From Polyangiaceae bacterium (GTDB lineage: Bacteria; Myxococcota_A; Polyangia; Polyangiales; Polyangiaceae), in assembly GCA_013214025.1 (NCBI GenBank), contig JABSRN010000068.1, forward strand, positions 1 to 64,000: a stretch of DNA of 64,000 bases. The letters are read 5' to 3'. Position numbers and translations under genes: made by a program. Positions 8,471 through 51,545 of the stretch are shown one piece after another. Position 1 is the stretch's first letter. Each line of letters starts with the position of its first letter. The notes under the pieces were generated by a model that saw only the letters and a list, made by a program, of their open reading frames with translations, did no database searches and was not told the origin of the DNA.

Positions 8471-8557
8471 GCACGCGGCGTGTGAGCCAGCCCTAGATTT
8501 GGCGATTCGCGACGCGCCCGCCCAACCCCGCGACCTCCCTCAAGCGGTTAGATATCG

Positions 8558-9160: not shown

Positions 9161-9224
9161 GCGGCAACAAGTACGGGATGGCTGCCGGCAATCCGGAGGC
9201 AAGCTGTTCGCAGGCAATGTAGTC

Positions 9225-9254
9225 GGAGCCGAGCTAGCCGGAGCTGAGCTAGCC
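9225..9254. repeat. 15-bp tandem repeat over the pmbA stop, giving tandem in-frame stops
   Basis: GGAGCCGAGCTAGCC and GGAGCTGAGCTAGCC are adjacent and match at 14 of 15 positions. On the minus strand each copy contains TAG in the pmbA frame, so the gene has a backup stop five codons downstream. Confidence 0.93.
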
Positions 9255-10598: not shown

Positions 10599-10640
10599 CG
10601 TTATGCGGGTCCTCTTGTGATCATCCGAATGGCAAACGTC

Positions 10641-11273: not shown

Positions 11274-11358
11274 CGCCGGGGATTCAGCCTACTTGGGAGG
11301 GCGCGACAGCCCCGCTATGGGAGTCGACGGCCGGCAGAACCCGCACTACAAGCCCAGG

Positions 11359-12117
11359 ATGAACAAATCCACGCTGCTCACATTGCTCGAACAGGTTCGA
11401 GACGGGGGAGTAGAAGTGGGCGCGGCGGTGCTCGCTCTCGAGCAATTGCCGTTTTCCGAGCTGGAAGATGCCGTGGTGGATCACCATCGGGCGCTCCGGC
11501 AGCATGTGCCTGAAGTTATCTTCGCTCCTGGCAAGACCGTTGAGCAAATCGTTTCTGTGGCTCGGGCGATCCTCGACCATGGCCAGAACCTCCTCATCAC
11601 TCGGCTAGACGAGAAAAAGGCGGCAGGAGTATGTCAGAGCATTCCCGAGCTCAACTATGAGTCAGTCGCCCGCGTGGGCGTTTACGCTCCCCATCCGGTG
11701 GTGCCGCTGACCGACGATTGTGTCGCGGTGGTCACCGCTGGAACCAGCGACATCCCGGTGGCGGAGGAAGTGATGGCGACCCTCAAGGCGAGCGGCGTGC
11801 CGACGATACGAATCGTGGACGTCGGGGTGGCCGGGATTCATCGCTTGTTTGCGAAGCTCGAGCCGATCTCAAAAGCTAAAGTCGTCATTGTCGTCGCTGG
11901 CATGGAGGGCGCGCTCGCCAGTGTCTTGGGCGGCATCATCAGCGGCCCACTCATCGCCGTTCCTACTTCGGTGGGCTACGGCGTGAGCCGCGATGGATAT
12001 GCCGCGCTCATTGGCATGCTGTCCTCTTGCGCTGCAGGAGTCACGGTGGTGAATATCGACAATGGCTTTGGCGCCGCTATGGCCGCCGTCCGAATCCTCG
12101 CAGGCAGCAAATCCTAA
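11359..12117 (+). CDS. larB: Nickel-pincer cofactor biosynthesis protein LarB
   Basis: LarB carboxylates and hydrolyses nicotinic acid adenine dinucleotide to the dicarboxylated precursor of the nickel-pincer nucleotide cofactor of LarA-type racemases. The 252-aa frame resembles AIR carboxylase (PurE), its fold relative, with [32 protein letters not shown] and [10 protein letters not shown] chose ATG 11359 because homology starts there; ATG 11317 and the longer open frame upstream are less likely. The stop overlaps the larC start by one base (TAATG), showing a tight operon. larE and larA are not in the window. Confidence 0.92.
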
Positions 12118-33032: not shown

Positions 33033-33109
33033 AACGACTCATGACACACGGCAGCGTGCCATTACGCCAGACCCTATCAGTCACCATGCCAATGTGGCGG
33101 AACAGTGGC

Positions 33110-33129
33110 GCGTGACAGCGCTGTCACGC
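33110..33129. promoter_or_regulatory. 20-bp perfect palindrome with a third half-site
   Basis: GCGTGACAGC|GCTGTCACGC is a perfect palindrome. The half-site GCGTGACAGCG recurs at 33148-33158. The layout suggests a dimeric regulator site just upstream of, or over, the start of the PilZ gene. Confidence 0.5.
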
Positions 33130-33149
33130 CGAAGTGCGGGGGCGGTGGC

Positions 33150-33581
33150 GTGACAGCGGGCGGATTCGGGGCTAAGCCGAAGCTTGTGGGAAACGGAGCA
33201 GCAGGGGATTCGCAAGCGCCCGAAAGCGGAACGACGCGCTTAGGTGGCGAGCCCGTGGACGTCGCTTGGTCAGTGGATTGTGCAGCGGAGGCGACCTTCT
33301 TGTATTCCGCCGCTCACGAAGATTCCGAGCTCGGAATCTTCGTAGTCACCCGCGAGCCGCTGGATGTCGGAACGCGGGTGACGCTTCGTTTTGAGCCCGG
33401 TGGATCGGAAGCGTCCTATTGTGCGTCGGGCGTGGTTCAGTGGATCAACGCGATGCGCGCGTTATCCGAGAATCGAAATCCCGGTATGGGCGTACTGTTC
33501 TTGGGCCTCGAGCCACAGGACCGTCGTCGACTCAAGGCGACCATTCGGACCTTTGCGTACGTTCGCAATTTCGTGAACTAG
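33150..33581 (+). CDS. PilZ-domain protein (probable c-di-GMP effector)
   Basis: The C-terminal ~105 residues match the small myxobacterial PilZ family: RLGGEPVDVAWSVDC, then SELGIFVVTREPLDVGTRVTLRF, a central VVQWIN strand and PGMGVLFLGLEPQDRRRL. The canonical RxxxR motif is weak, with a single Arg before GGEP, so c-di-GMP binding is uncertain. There is no ATG near the domain. GTG 33150 is my choice; GTG 33105 would place the palindrome inside the gene. A 14-bp duplication supplies a second in-frame stop. The gene is convergent with the anti-sigma gene. Confidence 0.72.
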   Translation: MTAGGFGAKPKLVGNGAAGDSQAPESGTTRLGGEPVDVAWSVDCAAEATFLYSAAHEDSELGIFVVTREPLDVGTRVTLRFEPGGSEASYCASGVVQWINAMRALSENRNPGMGVLFLGLEPQDRRRLKATIRTFAYVRNFVN

Positions 33582-35563: not shown

Positions 35564-36406
35564 ATGAGATTCGCTTGGGCGATATGCGCCGTGTTTTTGT
35601 CTGTTGTGCTGGCTGTTCCAACTACTGTTTTGGCACAGCCAACAGATAACGCAGGAGGGGCTGCCGCAGCCCCGGAACGGGACGAGGGTTCCAGTCCGGC
35701 ACAACCAGCGGAGTCCGCCGAAGGCGCTCCGGCAGGGGATGCGGAATCGACTGGGGGCGACGCAGCCCCTGCCGCGAAGGCGCAGCCCAAAGCACTGGCC
35801 GTCGATGGCTCTACCTACGCGGTTCGAATGCGCGATTTGGAAGCTCGGGTTGACGAGCTAAAAGAAAAAATCCGGCGCAGCCATTCTCGACTGAGCCTGC
35901 TCAGCGACACCATTCTGTCTGGCGGTGTCGGCGGCTCGGCTGCAGATATCACTTTCCGAAACGAGATGAGCAGGGCCTTCCGACTGACCCGGGCCTTGTT
36001 CGTATTGGACGGGGCAGTGCAGTACAACAAGCGAGACGAGTCCGGTGGCTTGTCCGAGCAAGCAGAGATCCCGATCTTTAGCGGCTCGATTCCTCCGGGG
36101 GACCACACCCTGCAGGTCTTGGTTCAGCTGCGGGGCCACGGCTACGGCGTTTTCTCGTATCTGCGGGGCTACCGCTTCGAGGTAAAGAGCACGCACTCCT
36201 TCACAGTGACCGAAGGCAAGACGATAAAACTAGAAGCCATCGCCTGGGAAAAGGGCGGCGTGACGACTCCGCTCGAGCAGCGTCCTGATGTTCGATACAC
36301 AGAGAAGATTTCGTCGGGAGCCACGGGAGGCCCCGCGCCCAAATCCGGGGGGAAGTCGTCGAAGGGCGCCTCCGGAAGCTTGTCGATCGGTTCGGGAGGC
36401 AAATAG
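35564..36406 (+). CDS. Periplasmic coiled-coil protein, first gene of the envelope operon
   Basis: The 280-aa product has a Sec signal ending AQPT near residue 25. An Ala/Pro/Glu-rich linker (26-75) and a short coiled coil (MRDLEARVDELKEKIRRSHSR, about 88-108) follow, then a ~130-residue beta-rich domain with GDHTLQVLVQLRGHG, and a Ser/Gly-rich tail. Proteins of this shape, sometimes mislabelled as dihydrolipoamide acetyltransferase, occur beside TPR genes in myxobacterial genomes; there is no lipoyl or acyltransferase motif here. Its TAG overlaps the GTG of the next gene, so they are coupled. A periplasmic structural part of the same machine is likely. Confidence 0.66.
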   Translation: MRFAWAICAVFLSVVLAVPTTVLAQPTDNAGGAAAAPERDEGSSPAQPAESAEGAPAGDAESTGGDAAPAAKAQPKALAVDGSTYAVRMRDLEARVDELKEKIRRSHSRLSLLSDTILSGGVGGSAADITFRNEMSRAFRLTRALFVLDGAVQYNKRDESGGLSEQAEIPIFSGSIPPGDHTLQVLVQLRGHGYGVFSYLRGYRFEVKSTHSFTVTEGKTIKLEAIAWEKGGVTTPLEQRPDVRYTEKISSGATGGPAPKSGGKSSKGASGSLSIGSGGK

Positions 36407-38808
36407 TGAGAAGCCTTGGCGTCCTTAGGGGCGCACTCGTTCTCCTCAGCGGACTGGCGCTAACGTCTGAAGCTGCCGCGATCGGAGCGTCGGCGGCGCG
36501 CCAATCGGCAACGACGACTGTGGTGGAAGCCGAGGTGTCCGCCCAGAAATTGCGGCGGCGTCTCTCGGCGAAAGGCAGGAAACCGCTGGGTGCGGAGAAA
36601 CGCGTCGTGGCTGGAGAGCTGCTGCTCCGCACGAAGGACTACGACCGTTCCATCAACGAGCTCAGCCAGGTGGTCGAGCTCTTCCGCCAAGGCAAGGCAT
36701 CAGCTGGCGTCCATTCCGACGCCCTCTACTACTTGGCCGAAGCCTATTTTCGCAGCCCTGGTGGGGGACAACTTTTGTCGGCTCGGCGTCAGTACGCAGA
36801 GATCGCAAAACGGGGTAACCAATCGCCGTACTCCAAATATGCCGGACGCGCCCTGGGGCGCCTGGTCGACGTTGCGTTGCGGACGGGCGATCTCCGTGGT
36901 TTGGAGTTCGTCTTCGAGCAGATTCGAAAGATCACCCAGCCGGATCCCTCGGGTTCCATCGCTTATGCCCTCGGCAAAGCGCACTTCGCCAATAGAGACT
37001 TTGGCGCGGCGCGCAGCGGGCTGGCTGGTGTATCGCCTGGTACCGCCTTTCATCATCAGTCGGCCTACTTGCTGGGCGTTATCCTGCTCAAAGAGGCGGT
37101 CGCCGGAGGGGGCGCGAGCGACGCCAGCATGCAGCCAACCGCGTCCAGCCCGTCGAACGCCGTCAAGTTCAACGCTGCCATCGCGCAGTTTGGCTTGCTG
37201 ACAAAATTGCCCAGCGACACCGATGAGCATCGCCAGGTGATCGATTTGGCGTGGATGGCCATCGGTCGTCTGCAGTACGAGACTAATCAGTACCTAGAAG
37301 CGGCACGGGCCTACAGCCACATCGATCGTAAGTCGGAACAATTCGGCGAAATGCTCTACGAGCTGGCGTGGGTGTACGTTCGATTGGGCGACTACCAACG
37401 CGCCCAGCGTGCTTTAGAAGTAGTGAGTATCTCGTCGCCCGGGAGCATGCATATCGCGGACGGTTCGCTACTGCGAGCGGATCTGATGCTCCGTTCCGGC
37501 CAATTCGACAAATCCCTCAAGCTTTATCAGAGCGTGCGGAATCAGTTTGATCCGCTGCGCGCCGAAGTTGACGACTTCATGAAGAGCACGACCGATCCGG
37601 CCGTGTACTACGACCGTCTTGTCGAGGACCCGCTTGAGGCCGGTGTCGATAACAAACTACCCGAGCTGGCACTTCGCTGGGTGCGAGAGGAATCCGAAGA
37701 CGATCGAGTTTTCGCTGTGGTCGACGATGTCAATCGGTCTCGTGCACTGATCAAAGAGGCTCGCACTCTGGGTGGCAAACTCGGCGCGGTATTGTCTTCC
37801 GCCACACGCGCCAAAGCCTTCCCGGAGCTGAAGAACCAACTGGAAGCGACCCTCGGCGCGCTGAACTCCGTCAGCCTAGCGCGACGGACTCTCGCGCTAG
37901 GACTCGAGGATTCCAACGACAGTGCGCTGTCGGGGGAAATCGCTTCCGTGCGCGCCGAACGGCGTTCTCTGATGAAACGTCTGGGCTGGGTCCCGGTGAC
38001 TGCCGGTGACTTTGCACGTCGCGAGGGCGCCGGACGCAAACAATGGCGAACCTTATCCCAGGGCCTGCAGAGGCTGAACCTCGAGGCCGACAGACTGGCG
38101 GCGATCATCAATGGGCTGCGCCGAGTGCTGAGGGACGCGGACCAGTACGGCGTCGTTCAGGACTCCGCCAATAGGGAACGATTCATGGAAGGGCTCCGCG
38201 CCAACGAGCAGGACCTTCTTAGTTATCGTCGCGCCATCAAGGAGTATTCGGAGCAGATCGCACTGGGCAGAGTGCAAGTCGGTCTGGGTGACCCACGATT
38301 TGTCCAAGACGCTCAGATTCGCGACCGTTTCCGGAAAGTGTTCGAACGGGAACTGAAACTCGCAGCATCCGGAGCCGCGGGCGAAGACGCTGCGGCCTAT
38401 GCCCGACAAATTGGCCCTCTGCTTTCCCAAGCTCGCAGCGTAGAGAAGACTCTCCACTCTGTGAAATCGGGGATCGATTCCCAGGTTGCGGACGGTAGCC
38501 AGAACCTGGCTGAGGTCGTCCGTCAAGAAATGACGAACATTGATGAATACGCCGGGCGCTTGGACGCCCTGGACAACCACGCGCGATTGCTCGTCGGCGA
38601 AGTAGCCATGAAAAACTTTAGCCTAGTCCGCGACAAGCTGAAAAATATCGTGCTCCGCGCAGACGTTGGCATCGTGCAGGAGGCATGGGAATTGCGCGAA
38701 GAGCAGCGGACCCGCTTGCGAAATTTGCAGCGGGAAAGAGCCCGTGAAGAGCAAAGTCTCAACGATGAACTCCGGGAAGTGTTGGACGACTCCGAGGAGC
38801 AGGAATGA
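36406..38808 (+). CDS. Secreted TPR protein (800 aa), GltC/NfsC-like position
   Basis: It starts with GTG 36406, overlapping the preceding stop, and has a signal peptide ending SEAAA. Residues 60-400 are TPR-type helical repeats (LLLRTKDYDRSINELSQVVE, ELAWVYVRLGDYQRAQRALE, LMLRSGQFDKSLKLYQSV). The second half is long charged helix without repeats, ending in a coiled coil (LREEQRTRLRNLQRERAREE). It should be periplasmic. Gene order and repeat type recall GltC or NfsC of Myxococcus motility and spore-coat machines. I infer this from layout and have not tested it by alignment. Its stop overlaps the next ATG (ATGA). Confidence 0.74.
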   Translation: MRSLGVLRGALVLLSGLALTSEAAAIGASAARQSATTTVVEAEVSAQKLRRRLSAKGRKPLGAEKRVVAGELLLRTKDYDRSINELSQVVELFRQGKASAGVHSDALYYLAEAYFRSPGGGQLLSARRQYAEIAKRGNQSPYSKYAGRALGRLVDVALRTGDLRGLEFVFEQIRKITQPDPSGSIAYALGKAHFANRDFGAARSGLAGVSPGTAFHHQSAYLLGVILLKEAVAGGGASDASMQPTASSPSNAVKFNAAIAQFGLLTKLPSDTDEHRQVIDLAWMAIGRLQYETNQYLEAARAYSHIDRKSEQFGEMLYELAWVYVRLGDYQRAQRALEVVSISSPGSMHIADGSLLRADLMLRSGQFDKSLKLYQSVRNQFDPLRAEVDDFMKSTTDPAVYYDRLVEDPLEAGVDNKLPELALRWVREESEDDRVFAVVDDVNRSRALIKEARTLGGKLGAVLSSATRAKAFPELKNQLEATLGALNSVSLARRTLALGLEDSNDSALSGEIASVRAERRSLMKRLGWVPVTAGDFARREGAGRKQWRTLSQGLQRLNLEADRLAAIINGLRRVLRDADQYGVVQDSANRERFMEGLRANEQDLLSYRRAIKEYSEQIALGRVQVGLGDPRFVQDAQIRDRFRKVFERELKLAASGAAGEDAAAYARQIGPLLSQARSVEKTLHSVKSGIDSQVADGSQNLAEVVRQEMTNIDEYAGRLDALDNHARLLVGEVAMKNFSLVRDKLKNIVLRADVGIVQEAWELREEQRTRLRNLQRERAREEQSLNDELREVLDDSEEQE

Positions 38809-41800
38809 CTTCCCGCGATCGTGCTTGGAGGGGCGCTTTTCGCCCACGTCGTGCGGGGCGATCTGCCTGCCTATTATTGGGAGCGCTGTTCTGCGGCGGT
38901 AGAATGAGCGTCAGCACTGACGCTCATTCCCAACCGAGTGGTGGCACTCAGCCCTCTGCGACCCAGCCCGCGGCGAGTCCCCCGGCCGCAGCGCCCCGGT
39001 CATGGGCAGCTGCTACCCCGGCACCCGCGCGCCCTCGGATCGGATCCAAGAAGCTGCCCCCACCGACTGCGGAGCAGCTCAAGGGGCTGGAGCTCATGCA
39101 GGCCGAGCTGAAGGCCTATGAGGCCGGAGCCAATGATTATCGCGGTACGTTGACGATGATCGTCCGGCATCACTACGAGGAACGAAGGCGCCGTGTCCTG
39201 GCGGCGCTCGACGCGGAGATTGGCATCGAGAGAAAGCGACTCGATGAGGCGCGGGATGAGGCGATCCGTCGTTTGGAGGTGTTTGTCGCGATCTACAGCG
39301 GAGACAACGCGCACCCGTTGGCGACACCGGATGCTATGTACCGGCTGGCCGCTCTCTACGAAGAGCGGACTCGTGCGGACTATGACGCCGAGTTGAGCGA
39401 TGGCCTGAAGAAACCCATCTCCCTGTATCGAGAGATCATAGAACTGTATCCGAACTACGAGGAGATTTCCGGGGTATATTACTACCTCGGGCATGCGTAC
39501 ACCGATTCAGGACGCTTCGACGAAGGTCAGCATGCGTGGAAGTCTCTGGTCTGTTCCAATCGCTATCAGGTCAAGGCGGATCCAAAGGATCCGGAGAAAA
39601 TCTCCGTCCCCCCGATGGAGCAGGACCACGACTTTAAGTTTTGGGACAATTGGTACAACCAAAACCCTGTGCCGATGGACGAAATCATTCCGCTCGAGCA
39701 GCGCGCGACTACCGCGAGCTACGCGGAGCGAAGCGAGGAACGTCGCTACCGCAGTCCCTACGCGGATCCCTGTGAGCGACTTCCCCAGAAGCTAGCGCTA
39801 GGCGAGGAGCCTCGCTATGTCGCTGAAGTTTGGTGGCAGATCGGTAACTACCACTTCGACCAAATGGATCAGAAGGGGGGGCCCTACAATCTAAACCGAG
39901 CGATGAGCGCCTACGAGCGCTCCATGGCGTTCAAGAAGCCGCCGCTTTACGGCGTCGCCATGTACAAGCGTTCGTGGACCTATTTCAAACAGCAGCGGTA
40001 CCGGACGGCGGTTCAATGGTTCGTGAATCTCCTGCACTACGCGGACGAACAAGAGGAACTCACCGGTGATCCGGGGGCAGATTTTAGGCAAGAAGCCTAC
40101 ACCTACATCGCGGGTTCTCTGACCTACGTCGACTTCGATGGCCCCCCCGCGGAGGATCCTTACATTCCGCGTAACGACGTGCTGGACGTCGAGAGCGATC
40201 CCGTGGTCGCCGAGGACAAGATGCGCATCGCTCTTGAGCGAGTGCAGGATCCGGCGCTCGTCCCCCAGGACAAGCCTTGGACGGTTGAGATCTACAAGGC
40301 CCTCGCGCAGGAATTCATCGAGATCACGCATCACCGCAACGCCATCGCCACCTTGGAGATCACTCTGGAGCGTTTCCCGCTCGACCGGGATGCGCCCAAG
40401 ATGCGAAACAAGATCAGCGAGCTGTACGATCAGCTGGCACGTCTGGCCCCCGAAGGCTCCGACGTGAAGCAGGAATACTCCGCTAAAGCCCTCGTGGCCC
40501 GAACCAAGCTGGCTGAATACGTCGGCAGCACCGCGTGGACGGAAGCTAACAAGGACGATCCGGAAGCGCTGCGCGAAGCGGAGGAACTAGTCCGCGAAGG
40601 CCTGCAGCGCGCTGCTGCCGACCACACCAACTACGCTCGCGGCTACTACACGCAGGCCCAACAGGTCAGCGACGAAGAGGGCCTGCGCATCCTCATCGAA
40701 AAATCGATCTCCGAGTATCGGCTGGCGGAGACGGGCTGGGCTGGCTATCTCCAACAAGACACCAACGCTCTCGACGCTTACGAGACGCGCTTCTGGCTGG
40801 CCGATGCCCGATACTGGATCGTCGTTTTGCAACTGGCTGTCGGACGAACGCCTACCCCCAAGGAAGTGACAGCCGCCAACGAGGCAGCCATTGATGTTCG
40901 CGAGTCCCACGAAGATGATAAGTATCTTCAGCCGTCGGCGTACTACCTGGTGACCATGGCGGACCAATTGGTTCAGCGTCAGCACCAAGTATTCGATGAG
41001 ACTGACGGCGCGAGCGGTTTTCAGAAACGCGAAGAACTGGTGTTTGCGGGTGAAGGCGACGCTCGACGAGTCGTGAAGGCGGAAATTCCCCGAATCATCG
41101 TCGATGCCATTGCGGCTCGCCGAGACTACAACGCGCGAATTTCCTACGAAGCCGACCCGCAAAAAAATGGCTTGATGTACACCTTCCAGAACGCCGACTA
41201 TTTCTTCATCTACGGCCATTTTGATGAGGCCAAGGCGATTTACGAGCCTCTCATGACAGAGCATTGCGGCAAGGATGAGTGGGGTTACAAAGCCTGGGAA
41301 AAGCTCATCAGTATGAGCAACTTCAGCAACGACGCCAAGCGCAGCCGTGAGCTGGCCGAAGGAAAGAGTTGCGCCTTCGACGAAGAGACCCAGGCAGCGG
41401 AGGACGCGATCCGCAAGCCGGTGAAGCAGGGCGTTGCCTATCTGGATGCTCGGGAAATGTACAACGCTGCCGAGGGCATGCCCGATGGCCCCGCTCGCGA
41501 CAAGAAATGGCGGGAGGCGGCCGCGGCTTATAGGGTCGCGCTGGACGCCGCACCGGAACGAGACGAAGCGCCGGAAGCCGCCATGAACGGTGCCTACGCC
41601 TACAAGCAGGTGGGGGACTACGACCAGGCGATCGCCATGTACACCCTTTTCATCGATCGCTATGGCAATAGCAAGAATCTAAACGCACTCAGGGACGGCG
41701 ACCCCTCGGCGACTCCGCCCATGGAAGCGGAGCCAAAGAAGTTCGAGGCCCGCGTAAGGTTCTTGAAGATGGCCTTCGATGCTTTGGCCAGCGCCTACGT

Positions 41801-42986
41801 GTTGTTCTTCAACTATCCCAAGGCGGCCGACACCTTCGGAACCATCAGCAAGAACGAAAACTTCACCAGCGAAGATCGAATCTCCGCGGCTCGGCAGGCG
41901 GTGGGCCTCTATGCGAGCTTGGGTGACTCGCGATCAACGCAGAAGGCGCGGGACCGTTTTTTCGCGCTCGGCGCCTCTGCCGAAGAACGAGCGGAAGTCG
42001 ATTTTACGATTGCTTCTGCGACGCTCAAGCAATGGGACGAACACAGCCCGAACTCTGGCGCCAATGCTACCGCGAGGGGTCGTGCGGATCGCGTAATGCG
42101 CGACTATCACGACAGCAACAAGAACAAGGATGCCGCCGCGAAGTTCGTTGTCGAAGCTGCGTTCTGGGTGGCCAAGCTCAAGCATGGCGGCAAGAAGCCG
42201 CAAGAAGACACATGGTGGAAGAAGACCATCGCCGCATACGATCGCTATGCGGCGGTCGCGCCGAAGGCCGAAAACGGCAACAGCGTGGCAGTGGGATCCA
42301 AACAAGCGTCCATGGCCGCCGAGGGCGATTATCGCTTGCTAGACAAGAAGATATCGAAGGCCTTCGATTACGACAATGGCCACCATCGATTCAAGGGTAC
42401 GCCGGTCGAAGTCATCAACGACTACCGAAATGTCGCGGGCGAGGCGGCGGACTGGAACAAGGAGCTGCAGCACATCATCGACAAGTACTCGTCTCCGGAA
42501 TGGGCGACCGCGTCGGTCGCACGACAGGGCACGCTCTACGATTCATTGCGCTCGGGCCTGTACAACACGCGGCCTCCGCAGCTGGTCATGTTCGACAAAA
42601 AGACGGAAAGGCTCCTCGAAAAAGCTGAAAATAGCGATAACGAAGCACTTCAGGAGCAGGCGGACGCAATCCGGATGCGGGTGGAAGGAGCCTGGCGTGA
42701 CGCCCGCGATCAGGAGATCAACTCTGCCGATGAGATCATGGTGGTCCGCTACAGCACGGCGGTCACCCTGGCTCGTCGATACAATGTATCGAACCCGGCA
42801 GTGGTACGCGCCATCCAGCGACTGGCGTTTTTTACGGATATCATCGGTGAGGCGAAGTTGAAGCAGTACACCAGCAATGTGCTGGACCTCAATTACACGG
42901 ACGGATTGTTCCTTCGGATCCGGCCGGGTCTGGTGACGGCGCCGGAGCCGAGCGGCATGCCAGCGCCTCTACCGGCGGCAGAGTAA
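38805..42986 (+). CDS. Very large secreted TPR protein (1393 aa), GltD/AgmU/NfsD-like
   Basis: After a basic N-terminus and a hydrophobic signal (LLLGALFCGG), a Pro/Ala-rich linker leads into a ~1200-residue solenoid of TPR-like helices. Examples are YYYLGHAYTDSGRFDEGQHA, MYKRSWTYFKQQRYRTAVQW and NGAYAYKQVGDYDQAIAMYT. The aromatic- and acid-rich style and the size fit GltD/AgmU and NfsD, periplasmic scaffolds that in Myxococcus span between the inner-membrane motor and outer-membrane parts. It overlaps the upstream gene by four bases and is followed by a TPR lipoprotein gene after 13 bp. No catalytic motif is visible. The orthology is inferred from size, fold and gene order. Confidence 0.76.
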   Translation: MTSRDRAWRGAFRPRRAGRSACLLLGALFCGGRMSVSTDAHSQPSGGTQPSATQPAASPPAAAPRSWAAATPAPARPRIGSKKLPPPTAEQLKGLELMQAELKAYEAGANDYRGTLTMIVRHHYEERRRRVLAALDAEIGIERKRLDEARDEAIRRLEVFVAIYSGDNAHPLATPDAMYRLAALYEERTRADYDAELSDGLKKPISLYREIIELYPNYEEISGVYYYLGHAYTDSGRFDEGQHAWKSLVCSNRYQVKADPKDPEKISVPPMEQDHDFKFWDNWYNQNPVPMDEIIPLEQRATTASYAERSEERRYRSPYADPCERLPQKLALGEEPRYVAEVWWQIGNYHFDQMDQKGGPYNLNRAMSAYERSMAFKKPPLYGVAMYKRSWTYFKQQRYRTAVQWFVNLLHYADEQEELTGDPGADFRQEAYTYIAGSLTYVDFDGPPAEDPYIPRNDVLDVESDPVVAEDKMRIALERVQDPALVPQDKPWTVEIYKALAQEFIEITHHRNAIATLEITLERFPLDRDAPKMRNKISELYDQLARLAPEGSDVKQEYSAKALVARTKLAEYVGSTAWTEANKDDPEALREAEELVREGLQRAAADHTNYARGYYTQAQQVSDEEGLRILIEKSISEYRLAETGWAGYLQQDTNALDAYETRFWLADARYWIVVLQLAVGRTPTPKEVTAANEAAIDVRESHEDDKYLQPSAYYLVTMADQLVQRQHQVFDETDGASGFQKREELVFAGEGDARRVVKAEIPRIIVDAIAARRDYNARISYEADPQKNGLMYTFQNADYFFIYGHFDEAKAIYEPLMTEHCGKDEWGYKAWEKLISMSNFSNDAKRSRELAEGKSCAFDEETQAAEDAIRKPVKQGVAYLDAREMYNAAEGMPDGPARDKKWREAAAAYRVALDAAPERDEAPEAAMNGAYAYKQVGDYDQAIAMYTLFIDRYGNSKNLNALRDGDPSATPPMEAEPKKFEARVRFLKMAFDALASAYVLFFNYPKAADTFGTISKNENFTSEDRISAARQAVGLYASLGDSRSTQKARDRFFALGASAEERAEVDFTIASATLKQWDEHSPNSGANATARGRADRVMRDYHDSNKNKDAAAKFVVEAAFWVAKLKHGGKKPQEDTWWKKTIAAYDRYAAVAPKAENGNSVAVGSKQASMAAEGDYRLLDKKISKAFDYDNGHHRFKGTPVEVINDYRNVAGEAADWNKELQHIIDKYSSPEWATASVARQGTLYDSLRSGLYNTRPPQLVMFDKKTERLLEKAENSDNEALQEQADAIRMRVEGAWRDARDQEINSADEIMVVRYSTAVTLARRYNVSNPAVVRAIQRLAFFTDIIGEAKLKQYTSNVLDLNYTDGLFLRIRPGLVTAPEPSGMPAPLPAAE

Positions 42987-42999
42987 GGACGCGCCGACA

Positions 43000-44397
43000 A
43001 TGCGAACAATTGTGAACATGCCATACGCCAGGTCAACCGAAGCGCTCGGGGGATCCGCGGAGCGGTGTGCCGGCGTAGACGGATTTTGGCCGCTGTCTAT
43101 TTCGCGACTACGGCGCTCGCGACTTGCGTTAGTGAGTGTTTGGATCCTGTGCTCCGCTTGCGGCGGTGGTGCTCAGGTGGGCGCCGAGTCTCCGACAGGC
43201 GGGCCTGGCGCCGGTCCCGGGCCGGCTGGCTCGGGAGCGCTCCTCACCAATTCCGCGGGTCAACAAGTCGCCGTCCAGGAGCTGCCAGGCGCGGCTGCCG
43301 GGCGCCCGCAGATGAATGCCGCTGCTGCTTCCGCTCACGCGGCGGGGCTTCATGCCTTTCAGTCCGGCGATCTCAAGGGTGCCGAAGCGCAGTTTAGCCG
43401 TGCCATAGCAGCCGATTCGAATGCCTACGCGTCGCACTACTCTTTGGGAGTCGTCAAGGAGCGCACCGCAACTGCCAGTCAGGCGCTTGCCAGTTATCAA
43501 TCGTCGTTGAAAATAGTCGGTGACTACTACCCGGCGTTGGCGGGCTTCGCGTCCCTGATGGCGCGCACAGATCAGTCGGACTCCGCCGAGAGCTTCTTAC
43601 TCAGCAAGAAAGCCAAGTATCCGAAATCGGCGTCGGTATTGGCGGCATTAGCCGAGATTAAGTCTGTGCAAGGCGATAGCAGCGCGGCCCAGCAGCTCGC
43701 CCAAGAGGCCCTCAAGTACGTTCCAGATTTTCGACCCGCGATGGTTATCCTCGCGCGGGATCACTACCGAAACCGCCGACTGGATTTGGCTCTGTACACC
43801 TTGAAGGCCATCTTGGATGGCTACGGTCCGGAGAACCCGGCACGCGACAAATCGAACGCGTCCGCCATGTTGCTGCGCGGCTTGATTTACAAGGAGCAAG
43901 GCTTCCGCAAACCGGCCATGGACGAACTCAAACGCGCCCTCGCACTGCGCCCGGATTTGGTAGAGGCCAGACTCAATCTGTCTACCTTCATGCTGGAGGC
44001 GGGCAACGCTTCCGAGGCGGTTCCCTTGCTCGAAGGAGCGCTGAAGTACGATAACTCCAACGTGCTCGTTCATCTCAATTTGGGGGACGGCTACCGCCTG
44101 TTGGGCAAGATAGCGGATGCTCGACGACAGCTGGAATGGGTCTCAGCCAAAGACCAAAACGTCGCTCAGGCTCACTACAACTTGGGCTTGCTGTACATGT
44201 TTTCTAAGGTTGAGGGCATGGACGAAAAGCAATCGCTCACCGCCGCCGTGGAAGCGTTCGAGAGGTTCAAAGGTTTGAGTCATCGTGTGGGCCCGGGTGC
44301 GGGAGACGACGTTGACGCCCTGATCAAGAAAGCCAAACAAAAACTTTCCATCATCGAGGCCTTATCGGCTGACGGTGGGGATGACGGATTCGATTGA
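43000..44397 (+). CDS. TPR lipoprotein (465 aa), GltE/AglT/NfsE-like
   Basis: A long basic N-terminus precedes a hydrophobic stretch ending ILCSACGGG near residue 53, an imperfect lipobox. The true start may be a later codon nearer the signal. Residues 100-440 hold about nine TPRs: AHAAGLHAFQSGDLKGAEAQ, SHYSLGVVKERTATASQALA, LIYKEQGFRKPAMDELKRAL, VHLNLGDGYRLLGKIADARR and AHYNLGLLYM. An outer-membrane TPR lipoprotein in this place corresponds to AglT/GltE and NfsE. It is 13 bp downstream of the large TPR gene, and its TGA is followed within 10 bp by the next gene. Confidence 0.76.
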   Translation: MRTIVNMPYARSTEALGGSAERCAGVDGFWPLSISRLRRSRLALVSVWILCSACGGGAQVGAESPTGGPGAGPGPAGSGALLTNSAGQQVAVQELPGAAAGRPQMNAAAASAHAAGLHAFQSGDLKGAEAQFSRAIAADSNAYASHYSLGVVKERTATASQALASYQSSLKIVGDYYPALAGFASLMARTDQSDSAESFLLSKKAKYPKSASVLAALAEIKSVQGDSSAAQQLAQEALKYVPDFRPAMVILARDHYRNRRLDLALYTLKAILDGYGPENPARDKSNASAMLLRGLIYKEQGFRKPAMDELKRALALRPDLVEARLNLSTFMLEAGNASEAVPLLEGALKYDNSNVLVHLNLGDGYRLLGKIADARRQLEWVSAKDQNVAQAHYNLGLLYMFSKVEGMDEKQSLTAAVEAFERFKGLSHRVGPGAGDDVDALIKKAKQKLSIIEALSADGGDDGFD

Positions 44398-44755: not shown

Positions 44756-45304
44756 ATGAGCTGGCTTGCGGCTATCTGCGCGGCGTTGCTTACCGCGGCT
44801 GGTGTGGCTGTGTCGCGCGCGCGGCTGCTATCCGTTCGCGCTATTTGTCTGCCTGGGGTCGGTGCGTCGTTGGAGGCGCTAGGAACGGTCAACGATGTGA
44901 CGCTGGCAGCGGCGGCAGCGTCAGCCCAGGATCCTCGGACTGCGGAATTTCTGGGCGAACTTGGCGTGGAAAGTTCGTTTCCTCACCGCGAGGCGATGGT
45001 CAACGAGGCGCTCCGAGATTTGGACGGGCGACTTCGCCAGGGCGGCACGGTGCCGAAGGCTGCTGCTCGCGCTTCTGTATGTGCGGGGAGTGCGGCAAGC
45101 CTGCTCGGCTTGTCGAACTATCTCGCCGTGCCGGATAGCCCGACGTGGCCCATTGGGGCAGCGCTCGGAGTGGGCCTGGTCGGGGGCCTTCTGTGCACCC
45201 TGCTAGGAGGACGAGCGGAGGAACTAGCCGTCGAGGAGCGCCGCCGAATCCATCGCCTGCGCCAAAAACTCAATCGCTGGATTGACGCCGGAGACCCCGG
45301 ATAG
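44756..45304 (+). CDS. Three-TM membrane protein with TolQ/MotA-like topology
   Basis: The 182-aa product has one N-terminal TM (about 3-20) and a ~85-residue soluble stretch with amphipathic helices. A hairpin of two TM segments (about 105-122 and 132-152) and a basic C-terminal helix (ELAVEERRRIHRLRQKLNRW) follow. This order (TM, cytoplasmic domain, TM pair, charged tail) is like TolQ/ExbB/MotA proton-channel proteins, but I see no clear family motif, so the comparison is topological only. It sits between the small secreted protein and the FHA/AgmX-type gene, where a motor part would make sense. An unrelated membrane protein is equally possible. Confidence 0.58.
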   Translation: MSWLAAICAALLTAAGVAVSRARLLSVRAICLPGVGASLEALGTVNDVTLAAAAASAQDPRTAEFLGELGVESSFPHREAMVNEALRDLDGRLRQGGTVPKAAARASVCAGSAASLLGLSNYLAVPDSPTWPIGAALGVGLVGGLLCTLLGGRAEELAVEERRRIHRLRQKLNRWIDAGDPG

Positions 45305-45687
45305 GCGGCCGATCCTGGGCATCTCGTGTGCGTTTGCGGGATTTTTCGGAAAGTTGCCTGTGGGGGGCCAAGTTTTTCCCGGGCCGCCCGTCCTAGCTCA
45401 TATGGCGAATATCGATGTTCGAGCTTGTCCACAACTGGCTGCCGCTCGCACGGTCGCCACCGACCGGCGAGCGCTCTCGGCAGCCAGGGTTGGCTTCGCC
45501 GTCGTGCGTCCCACAATTCGGTTCGTGATGTCTGTCCGGCCGCCGGACAGACAAGGCAAAAATTGCCACGACTTCGCATGGACCAAAGCCATCCCTCGGG
45601 CTAACCTGGGTCACATTCTCGGGGGATACGACGAGTATCCAACGTTCGGGTATGGGTCCTCGGGAGTGCCGTGACCTGGAGCTTCAG
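45305..45687. other. 383-bp gap before the FHA/AgmX-type gene
   Basis: It contains a strong inverted repeat (45529-45553) and AT-rich patches near 45344 and 45555. I see no consensus promoter. An open frame across it (45282-45674) overlaps the previous gene and has no family features. The FHA/AgmX-type gene may have its own promoter here. Confidence 0.5.
45529..45553. promoter_or_regulatory. 11-bp perfect inverted repeat, 3-nt loop
   Basis: TGTCTGTCCGG-CCG-CCGGACAGACA lies about 135 bp upstream of the FHA/AgmX-type start. There is no T-run. It could be a regulator site or a terminator for the upstream unit. Confidence 0.45.
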
Positions 45688-47091
45688 ATGACGCAACAAC
45701 CTCCCCAGCAAGCAGGACCCGGCGGACGCCCTGGTCAGATGACCGCCGTCATGCGGGCGGTCGCCCAGACCGGTCCGAAGGTTCTTCGTATTGGCCTCGT
45801 TCGCGAAGGACGCGTCATCGAGGAACGAATCATCAAGCAGCGGACTCACGTTACCGTGGGCCCCAGCGAGAAAAACATATTTGTTATCGGTGTGACCGGA
45901 ATGCCGGCATCGTTGAAGCTCTTCGAGCTGGTCGACAACGGCTATTGCCTGAACTTCCTCGACAACATGACGGGGCGTGTGGCTTTGCCGACCGGTGTCT
46001 CGGATCTGGCTATGCTGAAGGGGCAAACCAAGCGCGCTCAGCACGGCTCCTACCAGTTGCGTCTCACTGAAGATTCCCGCGGCAAGGTGATCATCGGCGA
46101 TACAACCTTTCTCTTTCAGTTCGTGGCACCGCCGCCGATTCAACCGAAGCCGCAGTTGCCGGTGTCGGTTACCCAGGGGGCGACCGTGATCGACTGGGGC
46201 ACCACCATGGTGGCGGCTTTTTCGTTCTTGGTCCATTTTACGGGACTCGGTCTGATCTATTCGGACTGGATGGATCCCGTCGTAGATTACGATTTGAACG
46301 TGGCGGCATTGGTCGAGTCGATCAAGGCATTGCCCGCTCCACCCCCCGTCGAAGAAAAAAAGCCAGACGAGGCTGAGGATAAGAAGGAAGCCGAGGCACT
46401 CAAGCCCAAGCCGAAACCCAAGGCAGCCAAGCCGGAAAAGGCCGCGCCTGCGGGCAAGACCCACATCACGAAAGCGGCTGCAGCGGCGTTGAGCAACGAG
46501 CTAGAGAGCCTCGAGATGGCGACTCTGGGCGCGCTGGGTGGTGCCGGTCCGGCAACGGCGGGCGTGTTGAGCAGCTCCGAGGTCCCGACCAGCTCCCTCG
46601 ATCAGGCGGCTGCTAGTAGCGCTGGCGTGTCGGCTGCAGGTGGTCTCAAGGTCGGCGGTGGCGGTGCGATTCGCCCAGGTCAGGCCGGCACCGGCTTGGC
46701 GAACATCGGCAAGACCGGTAAGACCGGACCCAGTGGTAGCGGCAAGGCCACAAAGGTACAGGGGCCCAAAGGCCGCGCCACGGTTGGCGGTGCAAACGTG
46801 GCGGGTGGCTCCGTTAGCAACGCGAGTCGAGTGGTCGCCCGAATGCGCGCGGGTTTCCGAGCTTGCTACAACCGAGCTCTGGCGAATAACCCGGATGTTT
46901 CGGGTCGAATCAACCTGCGCATCAAGGTGGGACCGAGCGGAAACATCACCGGAGTTAGCGCCAGCAAAAGCGGCAACATTCCGGCGTCTGTGGTGGCGTG
47001 CGTGAAGTCACGTGCGCGTAGCGGGACATTCTCCCCGCCCGAAGGTGGCGCCGCGGTAGTCGCGGTCCCAGTGACCTTCGTGAAGCAGTAG
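45688..47091 (+). CDS. FHA-like, single-TM protein with AgmX/PglI C-terminal domain (GltG/NfsG-like)
   Basis: From ATG 45688 (with CTGGAG seven bases upstream) the product is 467 aa. Residues 33-147 form an FHA-like beta domain lacking the classic Arg/Ser/Asn set. Residues 170-190 are a TM helix. A Lys/Pro/Ala linker and a long Gly/Ser region follow. The last ~90 residues (FRACYNRALANNPDVSGRIN, then PSGNITGV and VVACVKSRA) match the AgmX/PglI C-terminal domain, a TonB-like periplasmic module. GltG, GltJ and NfsG share this plan and link cytoplasm to envelope. Two Cys in the last domain may pair. Confidence 0.83.
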   Translation: MTQQPPQQAGPGGRPGQMTAVMRAVAQTGPKVLRIGLVREGRVIEERIIKQRTHVTVGPSEKNIFVIGVTGMPASLKLFELVDNGYCLNFLDNMTGRVALPTGVSDLAMLKGQTKRAQHGSYQLRLTEDSRGKVIIGDTTFLFQFVAPPPIQPKPQLPVSVTQGATVIDWGTTMVAAFSFLVHFTGLGLIYSDWMDPVVDYDLNVAALVESIKALPAPPPVEEKKPDEAEDKKEAEALKPKPKPKAAKPEKAAPAGKTHITKAAAAALSNELESLEMATLGALGGAGPATAGVLSSSEVPTSSLDQAAASSAGVSAAGGLKVGGGGAIRPGQAGTGLANIGKTGKTGPSGSGKATKVQGPKGRATVGGANVAGGSVSNASRVVARMRAGFRACYNRALANNPDVSGRINLRIKVGPSGNITGVSASKSGNIPASVVACVKSRARSGTFSPPEGGAAVVAVPVTFVKQ

Positions 47092-47575: not shown

Positions 47576-48205
47576 ATGAACATTGATGGGAAGACCTGGT
47601 TGTTGACTGCCGCAGCGTTCTCTTTCGGGGCGACAGGCGTCGCTTCGGCGCAATCAGGCTTGGACGAGCCCAATACGGTCGCACCAAGTGGAAGCCCCGA
47701 GCTGATGGCTCAGCAGGAGGTCTCGCTAAGTGGTGGGGACATGAAGGCCAAAGGGGCTACGATGGGGGCGACGATGGACGCCTCTAGAAAGACTCTCAAG
47801 ACTCAGCTGAGAGACGCCCGGAGCGGAAGCGACGTCGTGAAGACCCTCTGCCTCGAAGACAAATTAAACCAAGTTGATACAGCGATATCGTCCGCCACGG
47901 TGCACCGGGATTCGCTAGAGCGCTTGTTCAAGGCTCCAGACAGCCCAGCAGGCATGTCCCACGAGTTGCTGATGTTGGGGGTGCTCAAGGAGCGCGTTGC
48001 TATGGTGATGGCCGAGGCCAACCAGTGTCTCGGCAACGAAACTGGCTTCATCGGCGAAGCCGAAGTTATTGTCGAGATTGACGAAAATATCGCCAAAATC
48101 GAGCCCACGGTTACGGGCGGCTCCAATGGCGTGGTCCCGTACACGGGCTCCGTTGATAGCGTGCCGGTGCCCACTCCTCCTCGGGTCGTCAGCGACGTCG
48201 AGTAG
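47576..48205 (+). CDS. Secreted helical protein upstream of the barrel gene
   Basis: The 209-aa product has a Sec signal ending GVASAQS (about residue 26). A helical core (55-160) follows with one Cys in TLCLEDKLNQVDTAISSATV and another in MAEANQCLGNETGF, able to pair. The Pro/Val-rich tail may be extended. No family is recognised. It is the first gene behind the consensus promoter and is followed after 83 bp by the outer-membrane barrel gene, so it is probably an export accessory in the periplasm. GAGGAG eight bases upstream supports the ATG start. Confidence 0.7.
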   Translation: MNIDGKTWLLTAAAFSFGATGVASAQSGLDEPNTVAPSGSPELMAQQEVSLSGGDMKAKGATMGATMDASRKTLKTQLRDARSGSDVVKTLCLEDKLNQVDTAISSATVHRDSLERLFKAPDSPAGMSHELLMLGVLKERVAMVMAEANQCLGNETGFIGEAEVIVEIDENIAKIEPTVTGGSNGVVPYTGSVDSVPVPTPPRVVSDVE

Positions 48206-48288
48206 CTCCTCCGCCCGTTCCGAAATACTCTAGCTTAGTCGTCTTTTCATTGCGTTTTCCTTCTCATATCTTCCCGCTCCGTTCACGC

Positions 48289-49677
48289 ATGACGAGTCGC
48301 ACTCTCATCATTACGGCACTATTCCTCTCGCTCAATGGGTTGAGCGCGGCGGCGGTTGCTCAGACCAGCGCCCAACCCTGGTTATCGGATCGGCGAATTG
48401 GCGAGGGTGGGGGCATCCGAACGGGCAATCTCGAATTTCACCCGGGCGTCGCGGGGGAGGTCGGTTACGACTCAAACTATTTTCAAAACTCGGGTCAGGA
48501 GGACGCGACCCACAACGAGCCCATCGTTCCGACTCTGCGCTTTCGGCTTACGCCGTCGCTCAGTCTGTCCACGCTTAACCAACAGCGAAATACCGACGCC
48601 GGGGGCGATGCTCGACCGAAGGCCACATTTCGCCTCTCGGCCGCAGCCACGTACAACGAACTGTGGGCTGCCGACGAGGAGTATGCAGACAACATTTCCG
48701 ATCAGCGAAACCTAGGTGGCAATATCGGAAGCGTCTTGGCGCTCTTCCCGGAGGACCCTTGGGGGGCTGACCTATTAGCCAATTTTGGCCGGGTCGTTCA
48801 GCCAGGAAACGACCCGGGTATCTCCGCGGGCTTCAACCGCAACACCGTGGACGCTGGCGCCGGCGTCAACTGGAAACCGGGTGGCGGGCTCTTCGATTGG
48901 CGCCTGGGCTACGGAATGACCTATCAGTTCTTCGACGATTCCGATTTCTCGTCGCAGAACAGCACCACACATAACGTGAGCACTCGCGGGCGCTGGCGCT
49001 TCTTCCCTCGGACGGCGTTGATTTACTTGGGCCAAGCGGAGTTCATCAACTACTCAGACAGTACGTCCCGACAAAATGGCTCGAGTCCGATCAGCGCGAG
49101 CCTCGGCCTCAATGGCCTGGCGGCCGACCACTTCGGTTTGCTCGTCATGGCCGGTTGGAAGTCGACGTTCTACGAGAACTCACCAGGCGTTCCCGTGAAC
49201 AACTACGATAGTTTCATCGGACAAGCGGAAATGTCGTGGTTCTTGATGCCGCAACCGAAGCTGGAACCCAAGGGGGCGTCGGTCGGCTTGTCCTCGATCA
49301 CCACCGGCTACTTGCGTGACATCAGGAACAGCCTGCTCGGCGACTACTACCAGCGAGACCGAATTTACGGGAACTTCTCCTACTTCGCGGGCGGTGTGTT
49401 TCTGATGACGTTTAGCACCGGATACAGTCTGATTTCCCATCCCGAGACGCGGTTCAGCGCAACTGAGCTGCAGTTCGCTGCCTTCTCCGAGAATCGCGTC
49501 GATGCGACGGCCTTCGGGGAGTACCGATCGACCGATACCTTCGCTCTCAACGCGACTTTGCGCTACAACGGCTCGCTCAACAGCACGGATATCGTGGCTA
49601 TCCCCGGACGGTCTGATCAAGACAACGTTCAGTTCTCTCGCTTCGAGGCCTATCTCGGGGCGCGCTGGTTTTATTAG
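48289..49677 (+). CDS. Outer-membrane beta-barrel, probable polysaccharide exit pore (Wzp/EpsX-like)
   Basis: From ATG 48289 the product is 462 aa, with signal MTSRTLIITALFLSLNGLSA. Long amphipathic strands rich in Tyr, Phe, Trp, Asn and Gly follow, and the protein ends in Trp-Phe-Tyr, a typical barrel terminus. The mature size suits a 16-18-strand barrel. In Myxococcus, barrels of this size (WzpX/S/B, EpsX) form the exit pore for polymers together with short OPX proteins. The next gene here encodes exactly such a short OPX lipoprotein. The open frame extends to a TTG at 48250, but the signal favours 48289. The polymer is unknown. Confidence 0.75.
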   Translation: MTSRTLIITALFLSLNGLSAAAVAQTSAQPWLSDRRIGEGGGIRTGNLEFHPGVAGEVGYDSNYFQNSGQEDATHNEPIVPTLRFRLTPSLSLSTLNQQRNTDAGGDARPKATFRLSAAATYNELWAADEEYADNISDQRNLGGNIGSVLALFPEDPWGADLLANFGRVVQPGNDPGISAGFNRNTVDAGAGVNWKPGGGLFDWRLGYGMTYQFFDDSDFSSQNSTTHNVSTRGRWRFFPRTALIYLGQAEFINYSDSTSRQNGSSPISASLGLNGLAADHFGLLVMAGWKSTFYENSPGVPVNNYDSFIGQAEMSWFLMPQPKLEPKGASVGLSSITTGYLRDIRNSLLGDYYQRDRIYGNFSYFAGGVFLMTFSTGYSLISHPETRFSATELQFAAFSENRVDATAFGEYRSTDTFALNATLRYNGSLNSTDIVAIPGRSDQDNVQFSRFEAYLGARWFY

Positions 49678-49693
49678 AGACCTCCTCCTCCTA

Positions 49694-49713
49694 GGGACCC
49701 CTCGTGGGGTTCC
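49694..49713 (+). terminator. 8-bp stem with TCGT loop between barrel and OPX genes
   Basis: GGGACCCC-TCGT-GGGGTTCC pairs fully with one G-U. It begins 16 bases after the barrel stop and has no T-run, so it may lower rather than stop transcription into the OPX gene. Confidence 0.4.
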
Positions 49714-49788
49714 GCAACCGACGGACATCCCCACGTGTCACATAGCTTGCCGAGTCGGCAGCCCCGCTGCCGGCGTTATCGAGCAGTC

Positions 49789-50376
49789 ATGCTGCTCTGT
49801 TGTTTTTCATGGCTCGCCGCCGGGGTGGCGGCATGCGGCCCTAAGGTGGACAACTCCCTGGTCAAGCTGCCGGAGCCGGTGGAGAGCACGACCGTCGGCG
49901 CCGGCGATAGTTTCTCGCTGACCGTTGTGGGGGAGGAGGATTTGCCCACCGAATATCAGGTGGGCTCGGACGGAACCGTGGACCTACCCTATGTGCAAAA
50001 TATCAAGGTGGCTGGTTTGGAGCCCCAAGAGATTAGTCGCCGCGTTCGTGAAGCGCTGATTCAAGGTGACTTTCTTCGCGACCCGAGCGTAGTGGTTCGA
50101 GTGAAAGAGTACCGAAGCAAGCGCGTGAGCTTACTGGGTCAGGTTCAAAAGGCGGGAAGCTTTCCGCTGACCCCTGGATTGACCTTGGTGCAGGCGATCT
50201 CCCTCGCCGGCGGATTGAACGCCATTGCCCATCGAGATCGAATCAACCTCAGCCGGAAGACCGCGGACGGGACCAAGACAGTGACGGTCTCTTTGGATGC
50301 CATCACCGATGGCCGGTCACCTGATTTACTGCTGCAAGCGGGAGACCGCATCTACGTACACGAACGCGTATTCTGA
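49789..50376 (+). CDS. Short OPX (Wza-like) polysaccharide export lipoprotein
   Basis: The 195-aa product from ATG 49789 has a lipobox at Cys16 (LAAGVAAC). Residues 34-105 form the polysaccharide export (PES) domain with VGAGDSFSLTVVGEEDLPTE and GSDGTVDLPYVQNIKVAG. Residues 112-190 form one SLBB domain with VSLLGQVQKAGSFPLTPGLT and GDRIYV. It ends right after SLBB, without the extra SLBB and C-terminal helix by which E. coli Wza crosses the outer membrane. It therefore needs a separate pore, and the barrel gene just upstream supplies one. I chose Met 49789 over GTG 49735 because the signal starts there. Confidence 0.9.
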   Translation: MLLCCFSWLAAGVAACGPKVDNSLVKLPEPVESTTVGAGDSFSLTVVGEEDLPTEYQVGSDGTVDLPYVQNIKVAGLEPQEISRRVREALIQGDFLRDPSVVVRVKEYRSKRVSLLGQVQKAGSFPLTPGLTLVQAISLAGGLNAIAHRDRINLSRKTADGTKTVTVSLDAITDGRSPDLLLQAGDRIYVHERVF

Positions 50377-50388
50377 CGGGCGTTGCCC

Positions 50389-51453
50389 TCAGTCGAACAG
50401 ATTGCTGCGGAAACTGGCACCGAGCATCCCGCGCCAACGCGGAGAGCCCCAGGCGTTGCCTTGATATTCGCGGGTCCGGCCGAAACTATCCACGGAACGT
50501 TCGCGAGCGAATGGCAGTCCCGCGCCGCCACCCAGTCGAAGTGTGAGTCCGCGTGGAGAGGCCAGGTCGTAACGAACGGACATTAACCCTTCGAGCACGG
50601 GGTGGGAGCTGGTGATCACAGCTTCGCGATAGCTCCGGGTGATCGCGCCGAAGCTTGGGATGACGAAACTCTCAGCAGCTGTGTGCAATCCGCGCCATAG
50701 GTGGATGCTGAGCCCCGCCCCGGCGACCAGCTGGGTGGATAACTCCGTGTTCAAAACGCGGATGGAGTCGCGGATTCGAACGGTGATTTCGGCCGCAGTG
50801 GTTAGTCGAGAGAGAGTGTGCTCGATAGTCAAGCTCGGGGCCACCACGACGCTCGGCTCTGAAACATAGCTACGATCGCCTCCCAGGGGTGGCACCAGTG
50901 CGACGCGCAGCTTGAGCGCGAGCTTGTTATCCCCACGCTTTCCGAGCTGGTTCAATACGTTGTAGCCCAGGGTGAGGCGAGGGCTCTTGACGGCGTAGCT
51001 GCTTAGCTTTCCGGGGGCAGAGCTATTGGATGCGGCGGAGGTATTCAGTGCGGTGGCCCCGGCTCCCTCTTGGTGAACGATGAACGCTGATTGCAGTCCA
51101 AGATCCCAGTCGCGAGACAGCCCGACGCTGTAGCCCAGCCACAGTGTCTTCGCTGACGAAACAATGGGGAGCTCTCTGCCATCCGGATCCGGCGACGGTG
51201 CGACGACGACGAGGGGGCGATTCGCCGTATCAAGGATTGCGTGACTCCGGATGTGTCCGCGACCCACCGGTTGAGCCGAACTCAGACTAAACCAAGGGCC
51301 CATATCGGACGGAACCCACATTTGGTTCCAGTCGATACAGCTGGGAATCGCCGCCTCCCGTTCGCAGGCATGGGCGGGGGTCGTCAGGCTGCCCACCGCC
51401 CCTAGCCCCGCGAACAGCCGGACGAGCCAGGCGGGGGATCGTCGATGGCGCAC
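50389..51453 (-). CDS. Predicted outer-membrane protein, unknown function
   Basis: From GTG 51453 (AGGGG seven bases upstream) the product is 354 aa, with signal RRSPAWLVRLFAGLGAVGSL ending PAHA. A Cys-containing N-terminal segment (ACEREAAIPSCIDW) comes next, then ~300 residues of amphipathic beta-strands ending in Arg-Ser-Asn-Leu-Phe-Asp. It looks like a transporter-type barrel of about 14 strands. The frame extends to GTG 51510, but the closer start fits the signal better. It is convergent with the OPX gene (12 bp apart), so it is not in the same transcript, though it may serve the same envelope system. Confidence 0.62.
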   Translation of the reverse strand: MRHRRSPAWLVRLFAGLGAVGSLTTPAHACEREAAIPSCIDWNQMWVPSDMGPWFSLSSAQPVGRGHIRSHAILDTANRPLVVVAPSPDPDGRELPIVSSAKTLWLGYSVGLSRDWDLGLQSAFIVHQEGAGATALNTSAASNSSAPGKLSSYAVKSPRLTLGYNVLNQLGKRGDNKLALKLRVALVPPLGGDRSYVSEPSVVVAPSLTIEHTLSRLTTAAEITVRIRDSIRVLNTELSTQLVAGAGLSIHLWRGLHTAAESFVIPSFGAITRSYREAVITSSHPVLEGLMSVRYDLASPRGLTLRLGGGAGLPFARERSVDSFGRTREYQGNAWGSPRWRGMLGASFRSNLFD

Positions 51454-51545
51454 TCCCGGTCCCCTGCTCCGGAGTTCTTGCAGGAGCGTGTTATGGCATT
51501 GTGGTGACACTCGCTCGCCAGCGTAGCAGACCGGATCCCGTCATC

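Follow-up and report, generated by a model that had tools for sequence, protein, structure and literature searches.

Two adjacent genes on the forward strand of the window (the whole 64,000-nucleotide stretch of Polyangiaceae DNA analysed here) encode an 18-stranded outer-membrane beta-barrel of the Wzp/EpsX type (48289-49677) and a short OPX lipoprotein of the D1D2 (WzaB/EpsY) type (49735-50376), which likely form together the outer-membrane exit, or translocon, of a secreted Wzx/Wzy-type polysaccharide. The pair probably stems from the lineage of Myxococcus xanthus WzpB/WzaB. Whilst this type of exit is itself known, its fixed union across the phylum with a Glt-like machine is new, and the Glt-like genes encoded just upstream, which were absent from the first-pass annotation of this DNA, are the most interesting part of the locus. 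Domain content, barrel fold, gene order, the joining of motor and Wzc genes to the cluster in other families and the orphan position of the genome's own Wzc were each computed.

The OPX gene encodes 213 aa, of which Pfam assigned residues 50-124 to Poly_export (PES; 69.7 bits, cut-off 28) and residues 129-208 to SLBB_2, covering profile positions 1-79 of 79 and leaving a C-terminal remainder of five residues. Neither Wza_C nor a second SLBB domain was found in the Pfam scan of the 213 aa, confirming the first-pass annotation in its claim that the protein ends after a single SLBB domain. In comparison with PDB sequences, it matched the 186-aa 'polysaccharide export protein' 9n9a_A through the final residue of that chain, and its alignment to the longer Wza chains was confined to their middle part (residues about 96-252). 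A lipobox-like cysteine, judged by inspection, was invariant (C34, 24/24 aligned rows). The protein scored 85.5 bits on the NCBIfam EpsY model (cut-off 320), and phylogenetic analysis placed it with 42 other family rows in one clade (support 100/95), separate from a distinct clade of EpsY-like OPX proteins from the same family (100/100), which ruled out EpsY orthology; the long branches of this tree include the two other OPX proteins of the same genome, whose placement is unsure. Two family genomes (L061 and L066) carried a tandem pair of window-type OPX genes.

The barrel gene occupies an open frame at 48250-49677, with its conserved start at the ATG at 48289 and a C-terminal aromatic ending (WFY), and no Pfam or NCBIfam model matched its product at E 0.1. 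An AlphaFold2 model, for which 65 relatives from a profile search of genome contigs served as input, contained 18 long strands as counted from the DSSP line (pLDDT 88.5, pTM 0.85), a strand number that fits the earlier suggestion of a Wzp/EpsX-type barrel encoded just before the OPX gene. The fold was comparable to AlgE chains (Z 16.8-18.1, 4.1-4.4 A over 315-338 residues, 7% identity), with which OccK/OprD porins tied (Z 17-19, up to 19.1), and to PgaA 4y25 (Z 15.5). OprD/Occ porins are 18-stranded, as is AlgE, so the tie is only weakly informative. Likeness to the alginate system comprises the 18-strand barrel fold and the presence of TPR proteins in the pathway, AlgK being the TPR partner of AlgE, whereas the alginate pathway is synthase-dependent, has no OPX protein and shares with the window barrel only the 7% identity given above. 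EpsY/EpsX (WzaX/WzpX) likewise combine a D1D2-type OPX with an 18-strand barrel but differ in that the EpsY-like OPX proteins of the window's family fall in the other clade. Within the 9-11 kb stretches around EpsY-like OPX genes, no ORF matched the window-barrel model. For EpsX and EpsY themselves, mutual stabilisation and interaction have been demonstrated and a composite translocon proposed (PMC9601211).

Upstream of the barrel, on the same strand, lies a run of genes that opens with A280 (35564-36406), which encodes a probably secreted protein with no Pfam match and is the first gene of the conserved cluster. It is followed by genes for a GltC-like TPR protein of 800 aa (36406-38808; TPR domains, NF033756 gliding_GltC at 61.7 bits, equivalog cut-off 450), a GltD-like long TPR protein of 1393 aa (38805-42986; weak TPR matches, named from position and size rather than from a family model) and a GltE-like TPR protein of 465 aa (43000-44397; NF033758 gliding_GltE at 73.1 bits, cut-off 225). 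Next are the small protein o182 (44756-45304), without a Pfam match and with weak homologues in 4/40 family loci, which occupies the site of an ExbB-ExbD-ExbD motor in other families, and a GltG-like protein with an AgmX/PglI (TonB-like) C-terminal domain (45652-47091; NF033760 at 87.9 bits, cut-off 650) that also reached 57 bits on NF033768 myxo_SS_tail, above the cut-off of 40. Between GltG and the barrel lies o209 (47576-48205), a probably exported helical-bundle protein of the periplasm; its AlphaFold2 model (pLDDT 76.3 overall) reached 90-98 blockwise over residues about 51-150, C92 and C151 were invariant in 48 aligned rows, and the model matched no PDB fold at E 0.001 or better. The cluster resembles the Agl-Glt and Agl-Nfs machines in its GltC-, GltD-, GltE- and GltG-like proteins and in the ExbB-ExbD-ExbD motor of the homologous clusters of other families, and differs from them in adding OPX, barrel and o209, in its GltC-, GltE- and GltG-like scores, all below the NCBIfam equivalog cut-offs, and in a GltG that falls outside the canonical clade. 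In the GltG tree, the canonical rows formed one clade (100/100) that included another copy from the same genome; because the tree splits these two copies, the genome carries a canonical GltG-bearing set in addition to the separate set of the window. A canonical gliding operon was rejected on the sub-cut-off scores and this tree. Over 235 and 377 phylum genomes, respectively, the NCBIfam GltG and EpsY models gave nothing above cut-off.

Within the family, a barrel homologue was found in 58/60 of the genomes searched, in single copy in nearly all, and an OPX gene lay beside it at every one of the 29 relative loci examined first. A barrel match was obtained in 57 relatives, 40 of which were examined in larger neighbourhoods (the 17 omitted mostly had short or broken contigs, and four of these were covered by the earlier 29-locus set); barrel and OPX genes were present and adjacent in all 40, accompanied by GltG-like (n = 39), o209 (n = 39), GltD-like (n = 34), GltE-like (n = 34), GltC-like (n = 31) and A280 (n = 30) genes, with several of the absences being contig ends. 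Given the barrel in 58/60 genomes and adjacency in 29/29 and 40/40 loci, the pairing is not a matter of chance. Two family genomes (98 and 100% complete) lacked barrel, o209 and window-type OPX altogether, their sole OPX falling in the EpsY-like clade, and a third genome of the same genus encoded barrel, o209 and OPX within 3 kb. The picture was less clear in other genomes without a barrel. Eleven genomes were searched again with o209 and OPX profiles, namely G379 as a barrel-positive control and ten genomes without a barrel match. Both o209 and window-type OPX were missing from G004 and G049, o209 was present and OPX absent in G085, an OPX was present in G381, G177 and G377, and matches were mixed or weak in G208, G101, G195 and G395. 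The absence of a barrel in G177 and G377 may reflect an assembly gap, since o209 (G177) and OPX (G377) lie near contig starts.

Across the phylum, the barrel profile matched 238/377 genomes, and named relatives spanned Polyangiaceae, Sorangium cellulosum, Sandaracinaceae and other Myxococcota. At 40 loci from 22 other families (family labels counted), chosen for family spread and barrel score, an OPX gene lay near the barrel in 36, a count that is not a blind sample because a neighbouring OPX hit was already known for some of these loci. The same 40 loci encoded o209 (n = 38), GltG (n = 29), GltE (n = 25), GltD (n = 23), GltC (n = 22), A280 (n = 18), ExbB (n = 13), ExbD (n = 11) and Wzc (n = 11), and GltC, GltD, GltE, GltG, o209, barrel and OPX occurred all seven together in 21. 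Among 80 named loci chosen on barrel similarity alone, an OPX gene was near the barrel in 68, with three of the 12 misses being contig ends. Homologous barrels that never adjoin OPX genes, a case the earlier reading had held against itself, are thus contradicted by both samples, and its Wzp/EpsX-type pairing is supported by the OPX domains, the 18-strand AlgE-like barrel and this phylum-wide neighbourhood. In Sorangium cellulosum, the two long-flanked loci (L246 and L269) each contained GltC-, GltD-, GltE- and GltG-like genes, o209, barrel and OPX. Spacing and content varied: the OPX gene lay 3.6 kb past the barrel in L181, and no OPX adjoined the barrel despite downstream room in L169, L170 and L171, nor in L217, L219, L226, L244, L247, L250, L251, L282 and L289. 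At loci without an adjoining OPX gene, the barrel was mostly accompanied by o209. In L200, a 1601-aa FG-GAP repeat protein (7044-11849) was inserted between GltG and o209.

Motor and Wzc genes joined the cluster in several of these families. ExbB with two or more ExbD genes lay inside the cluster in 11/40 other-family loci, and where present the ExbB/ExbD genes were positioned between GltE and GltG or immediately before GltG. Wzc followed OPX on the same strand in nine of the 40 loci and was on the opposite strand in two; OPX and Wzc share a strand in L168, and motor and same-strand Wzc occurred in one run in L190, L195 and L200. Pfam confirmed five of the Wzc proteins (GNVR and P-loop) and the motor (MotA_ExbB and ExbD) in L190, L191 and L200.

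In the window itself, no Wzc, Wzx or Wzy domain was detected among the 34 proteins scanned with Pfam, a subset of its ORFs. The lack of kinase and polymerase genes reported in the first-pass annotation therefore stands for these proteins, but its description as unusual does not, as the published WzaB is arranged in the same way (PMC7310880). Profile searches of the genome's own assembly (5.77 Mb, 184 contigs) recovered three OPX genes and one GNVR-type Wzc, a 763-aa protein with a P-loop and a tyrosine-rich tail on contig C138 that scored 708 bits to the model of OPX-adjacent Wzc. Its neighbours encode a weak Wzy_C-like protein (19.6 bits, cut-off 31.7), a Polysacc_synt_2 protein and a DegT aminotransferase, and no OPX gene was found within the surrounding 16-kb stretch. 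This accounts for the kinase missing at the window locus, as the genome encodes its sole GNVR-type Wzc on a different contig in a stretch devoid of OPX genes. Each of the two other OPX genes has a PCP-like ORF beside it, one of the two reaching Wzz in Pfam, and by elimination we infer that the window OPX pairs with the C138 Wzc. The contig to which the window belongs carries two adjacent, divergent ExbB-ExbD-ExbD triples (about 92.7-97.4 kb), roughly 42-47 kb from the cluster, which has no motor inside it; the ExbB tree had long branches and singled out neither triple for the window cluster.

This arrangement resembles that of WzaB/WzpB of the M. xanthus BPS pathway, in which a short OPX and an 18-strand barrel are likewise encoded far from a Wzc with a fused kinase. 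Three Wzp porins have been named in M. xanthus (MXAN_7418, MXAN_3226 and MXAN_1916) (PMC9603273), and WzaB (MXAN_1915) is described as orphan-like, 1.016 Mb from the BPS Wzc/Wzy/Wzx cluster (PMC7310880), and as lying outside any polysaccharide cluster (PMC7484181). Its partner is a PCP with a fused tyrosine kinase encoded elsewhere, for which the C138 Wzc would be the analogue here, and the published WzaB orthologue of Sandaracinus amylolyticus is contiguous with WzcB (PMC7310880, PMC7484181). A second likeness involves MXAN_1922, the gltD homologue of the G4 region, described as of unknown function; a polar MXAN_1922 mutant had no motility phenotype (PMC3169522). By published tags, WzpB (MXAN_1916) and WzaB (MXAN_1915) lie six and seven genes from MXAN_1922, a spacing close to that between the GltD-like gene and the pair in the window. 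The proposed kinship of the two pairs is read from published locus tags and gene order, no Myxococcus locus having been recognised among the genomes searched. No link between WzaB/WzpB and G4 was found in the text passages of this literature.

In the mechanism we propose, polymer would be made at the distant Wzc/Wzy-like locus on C138, cross the periplasm, pass the lipid-anchored OPX ring and leave through the 18-strand barrel, with both the docking of ring and barrel and the substrate being predicted. The GltC-, GltD-, GltE- and GltG-like proteins and o209 would provide an envelope-spanning scaffold for this exit, and the TonB-like GltG, with an ExbB/ExbD motor encoded elsewhere, might tie the passage of polymer, or the placement of the exit site, to the proton-motive force. 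Counting against this mechanism are the loci with no OPX beside the barrel or no Glt core in the vicinity, the absence of a motor from the window cluster, the sub-cut-off GltC-, GltE- and GltG-like scores and the unimpaired motility of the polar MXAN_1922 mutant. That the Glt-like set and motor are coupled to export is a tentative proposal from gene order, which we regard as plausible yet short of probable. Its fuller form makes a Glt-like machine driven by proton-motive force part of the export apparatus, with the motor, GltG, the TPR proteins and o209 spanning the periplasm from Wzc to the OPX-barrel pair and driving or gating the polymer. This form is rather unlikely on present evidence, though it would have consequences: the machines with which myxobacteria glide and build spore coats would be related to, and perhaps derived from, a secretion machine, G4 would supply what the M. 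xanthus BPS exporter lacks, and the periplasmic distance of about 100 A between Wzc and a short OPX, described as unaccounted for (PMC9603273), would gain a filler. More generally, the conserved cluster suggests that machines related to those of gliding and spore-coat formation may also help sugar export. It joins the literature on the orphan-like WzaB (PMC7310880, PMC7484181) to that on G4 (PMC3169522) and makes a question testable in M. xanthus, namely whether BPS export depends on G4 or on the M2 motor. It also bears on how a short OPX serves a wide periplasm (PMC9603273) and on the ancestral role of the Glt core in non-gliding bacteria.

About equally likely as motor-coupled export, and a serious contender that falls somewhat short of an even chance, is that the pair exports with Wzc alone, and that the neighbouring Glt-like proteins make up a machine of their own for surface transport, which would catch and move the polymer once it is outside, as proposed for Nfs with Exo. 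This would follow the published model of Agl-Nfs and the Exo spore-coat polymer, in which polymers are handled by the M. xanthus Agl-Glt and Agl-Nfs machines post-export and these machines, according to the authors, take no part in synthesis or export (PMC3858216), and o209-barrel-OPX loci without a Glt core near by (L168, L184, L186, L198, L201 and L202, with o209 only weakly matched in L184) fit it as well. However, the exo and nfs genes of M. xanthus are separate by tag (WzaS MXAN_3225, nfsD MXAN_3374), whereas here a single conserved run is found, in most loci with o209 and barrel between GltG and OPX. It is improbable that this neighbourhood is only inherited gene order and that the OPX pair has no functional tie to the Glt-like genes: related genomes do share order by descent, and the nearby Maf gene, next downstream on the same strand, was retained in 17/40 family loci, but this is far less than the cluster itself, the order persists in other families of the phylum, and Wzc and motor genes join the same run in several of them. 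Least credible is a barrel acting as a substrate-specific uptake porin of the OprD/Occ type with no part in polysaccharide export, for the OccK/OprD tie in fold comparison that favours it carries little weight between 18-stranded barrels and, fold alone being insufficient against it, this reading was dropped on gene context, namely the phylum-wide OPX adjacency and the co-loss with OPX.

Several further genes were observed around the cluster. Immediately after the OPX gene, on the reverse strand, a 373-aa ORF (50389-51510) without a Pfam match had low-identity homologues in 15/40 family loci. A UDP-glucose/GDP-mannose dehydrogenase-type gene near OPX was present in 4/40 other-family and 10/80 named loci, and would fit, as weak evidence, a uronic-acid polymer like BPS. 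Two kilobases upstream of the cluster, a PilZ-domain protein (33105-33581) was TIGR02266-like but under the model cut-off, and a link to c-di-GMP is possible. A protein of 951 aa (30123-32978), which carries a PMT_2 mannosyltransferase-like domain, was the sole glycosyltransferase-like gene product seen near the cluster.
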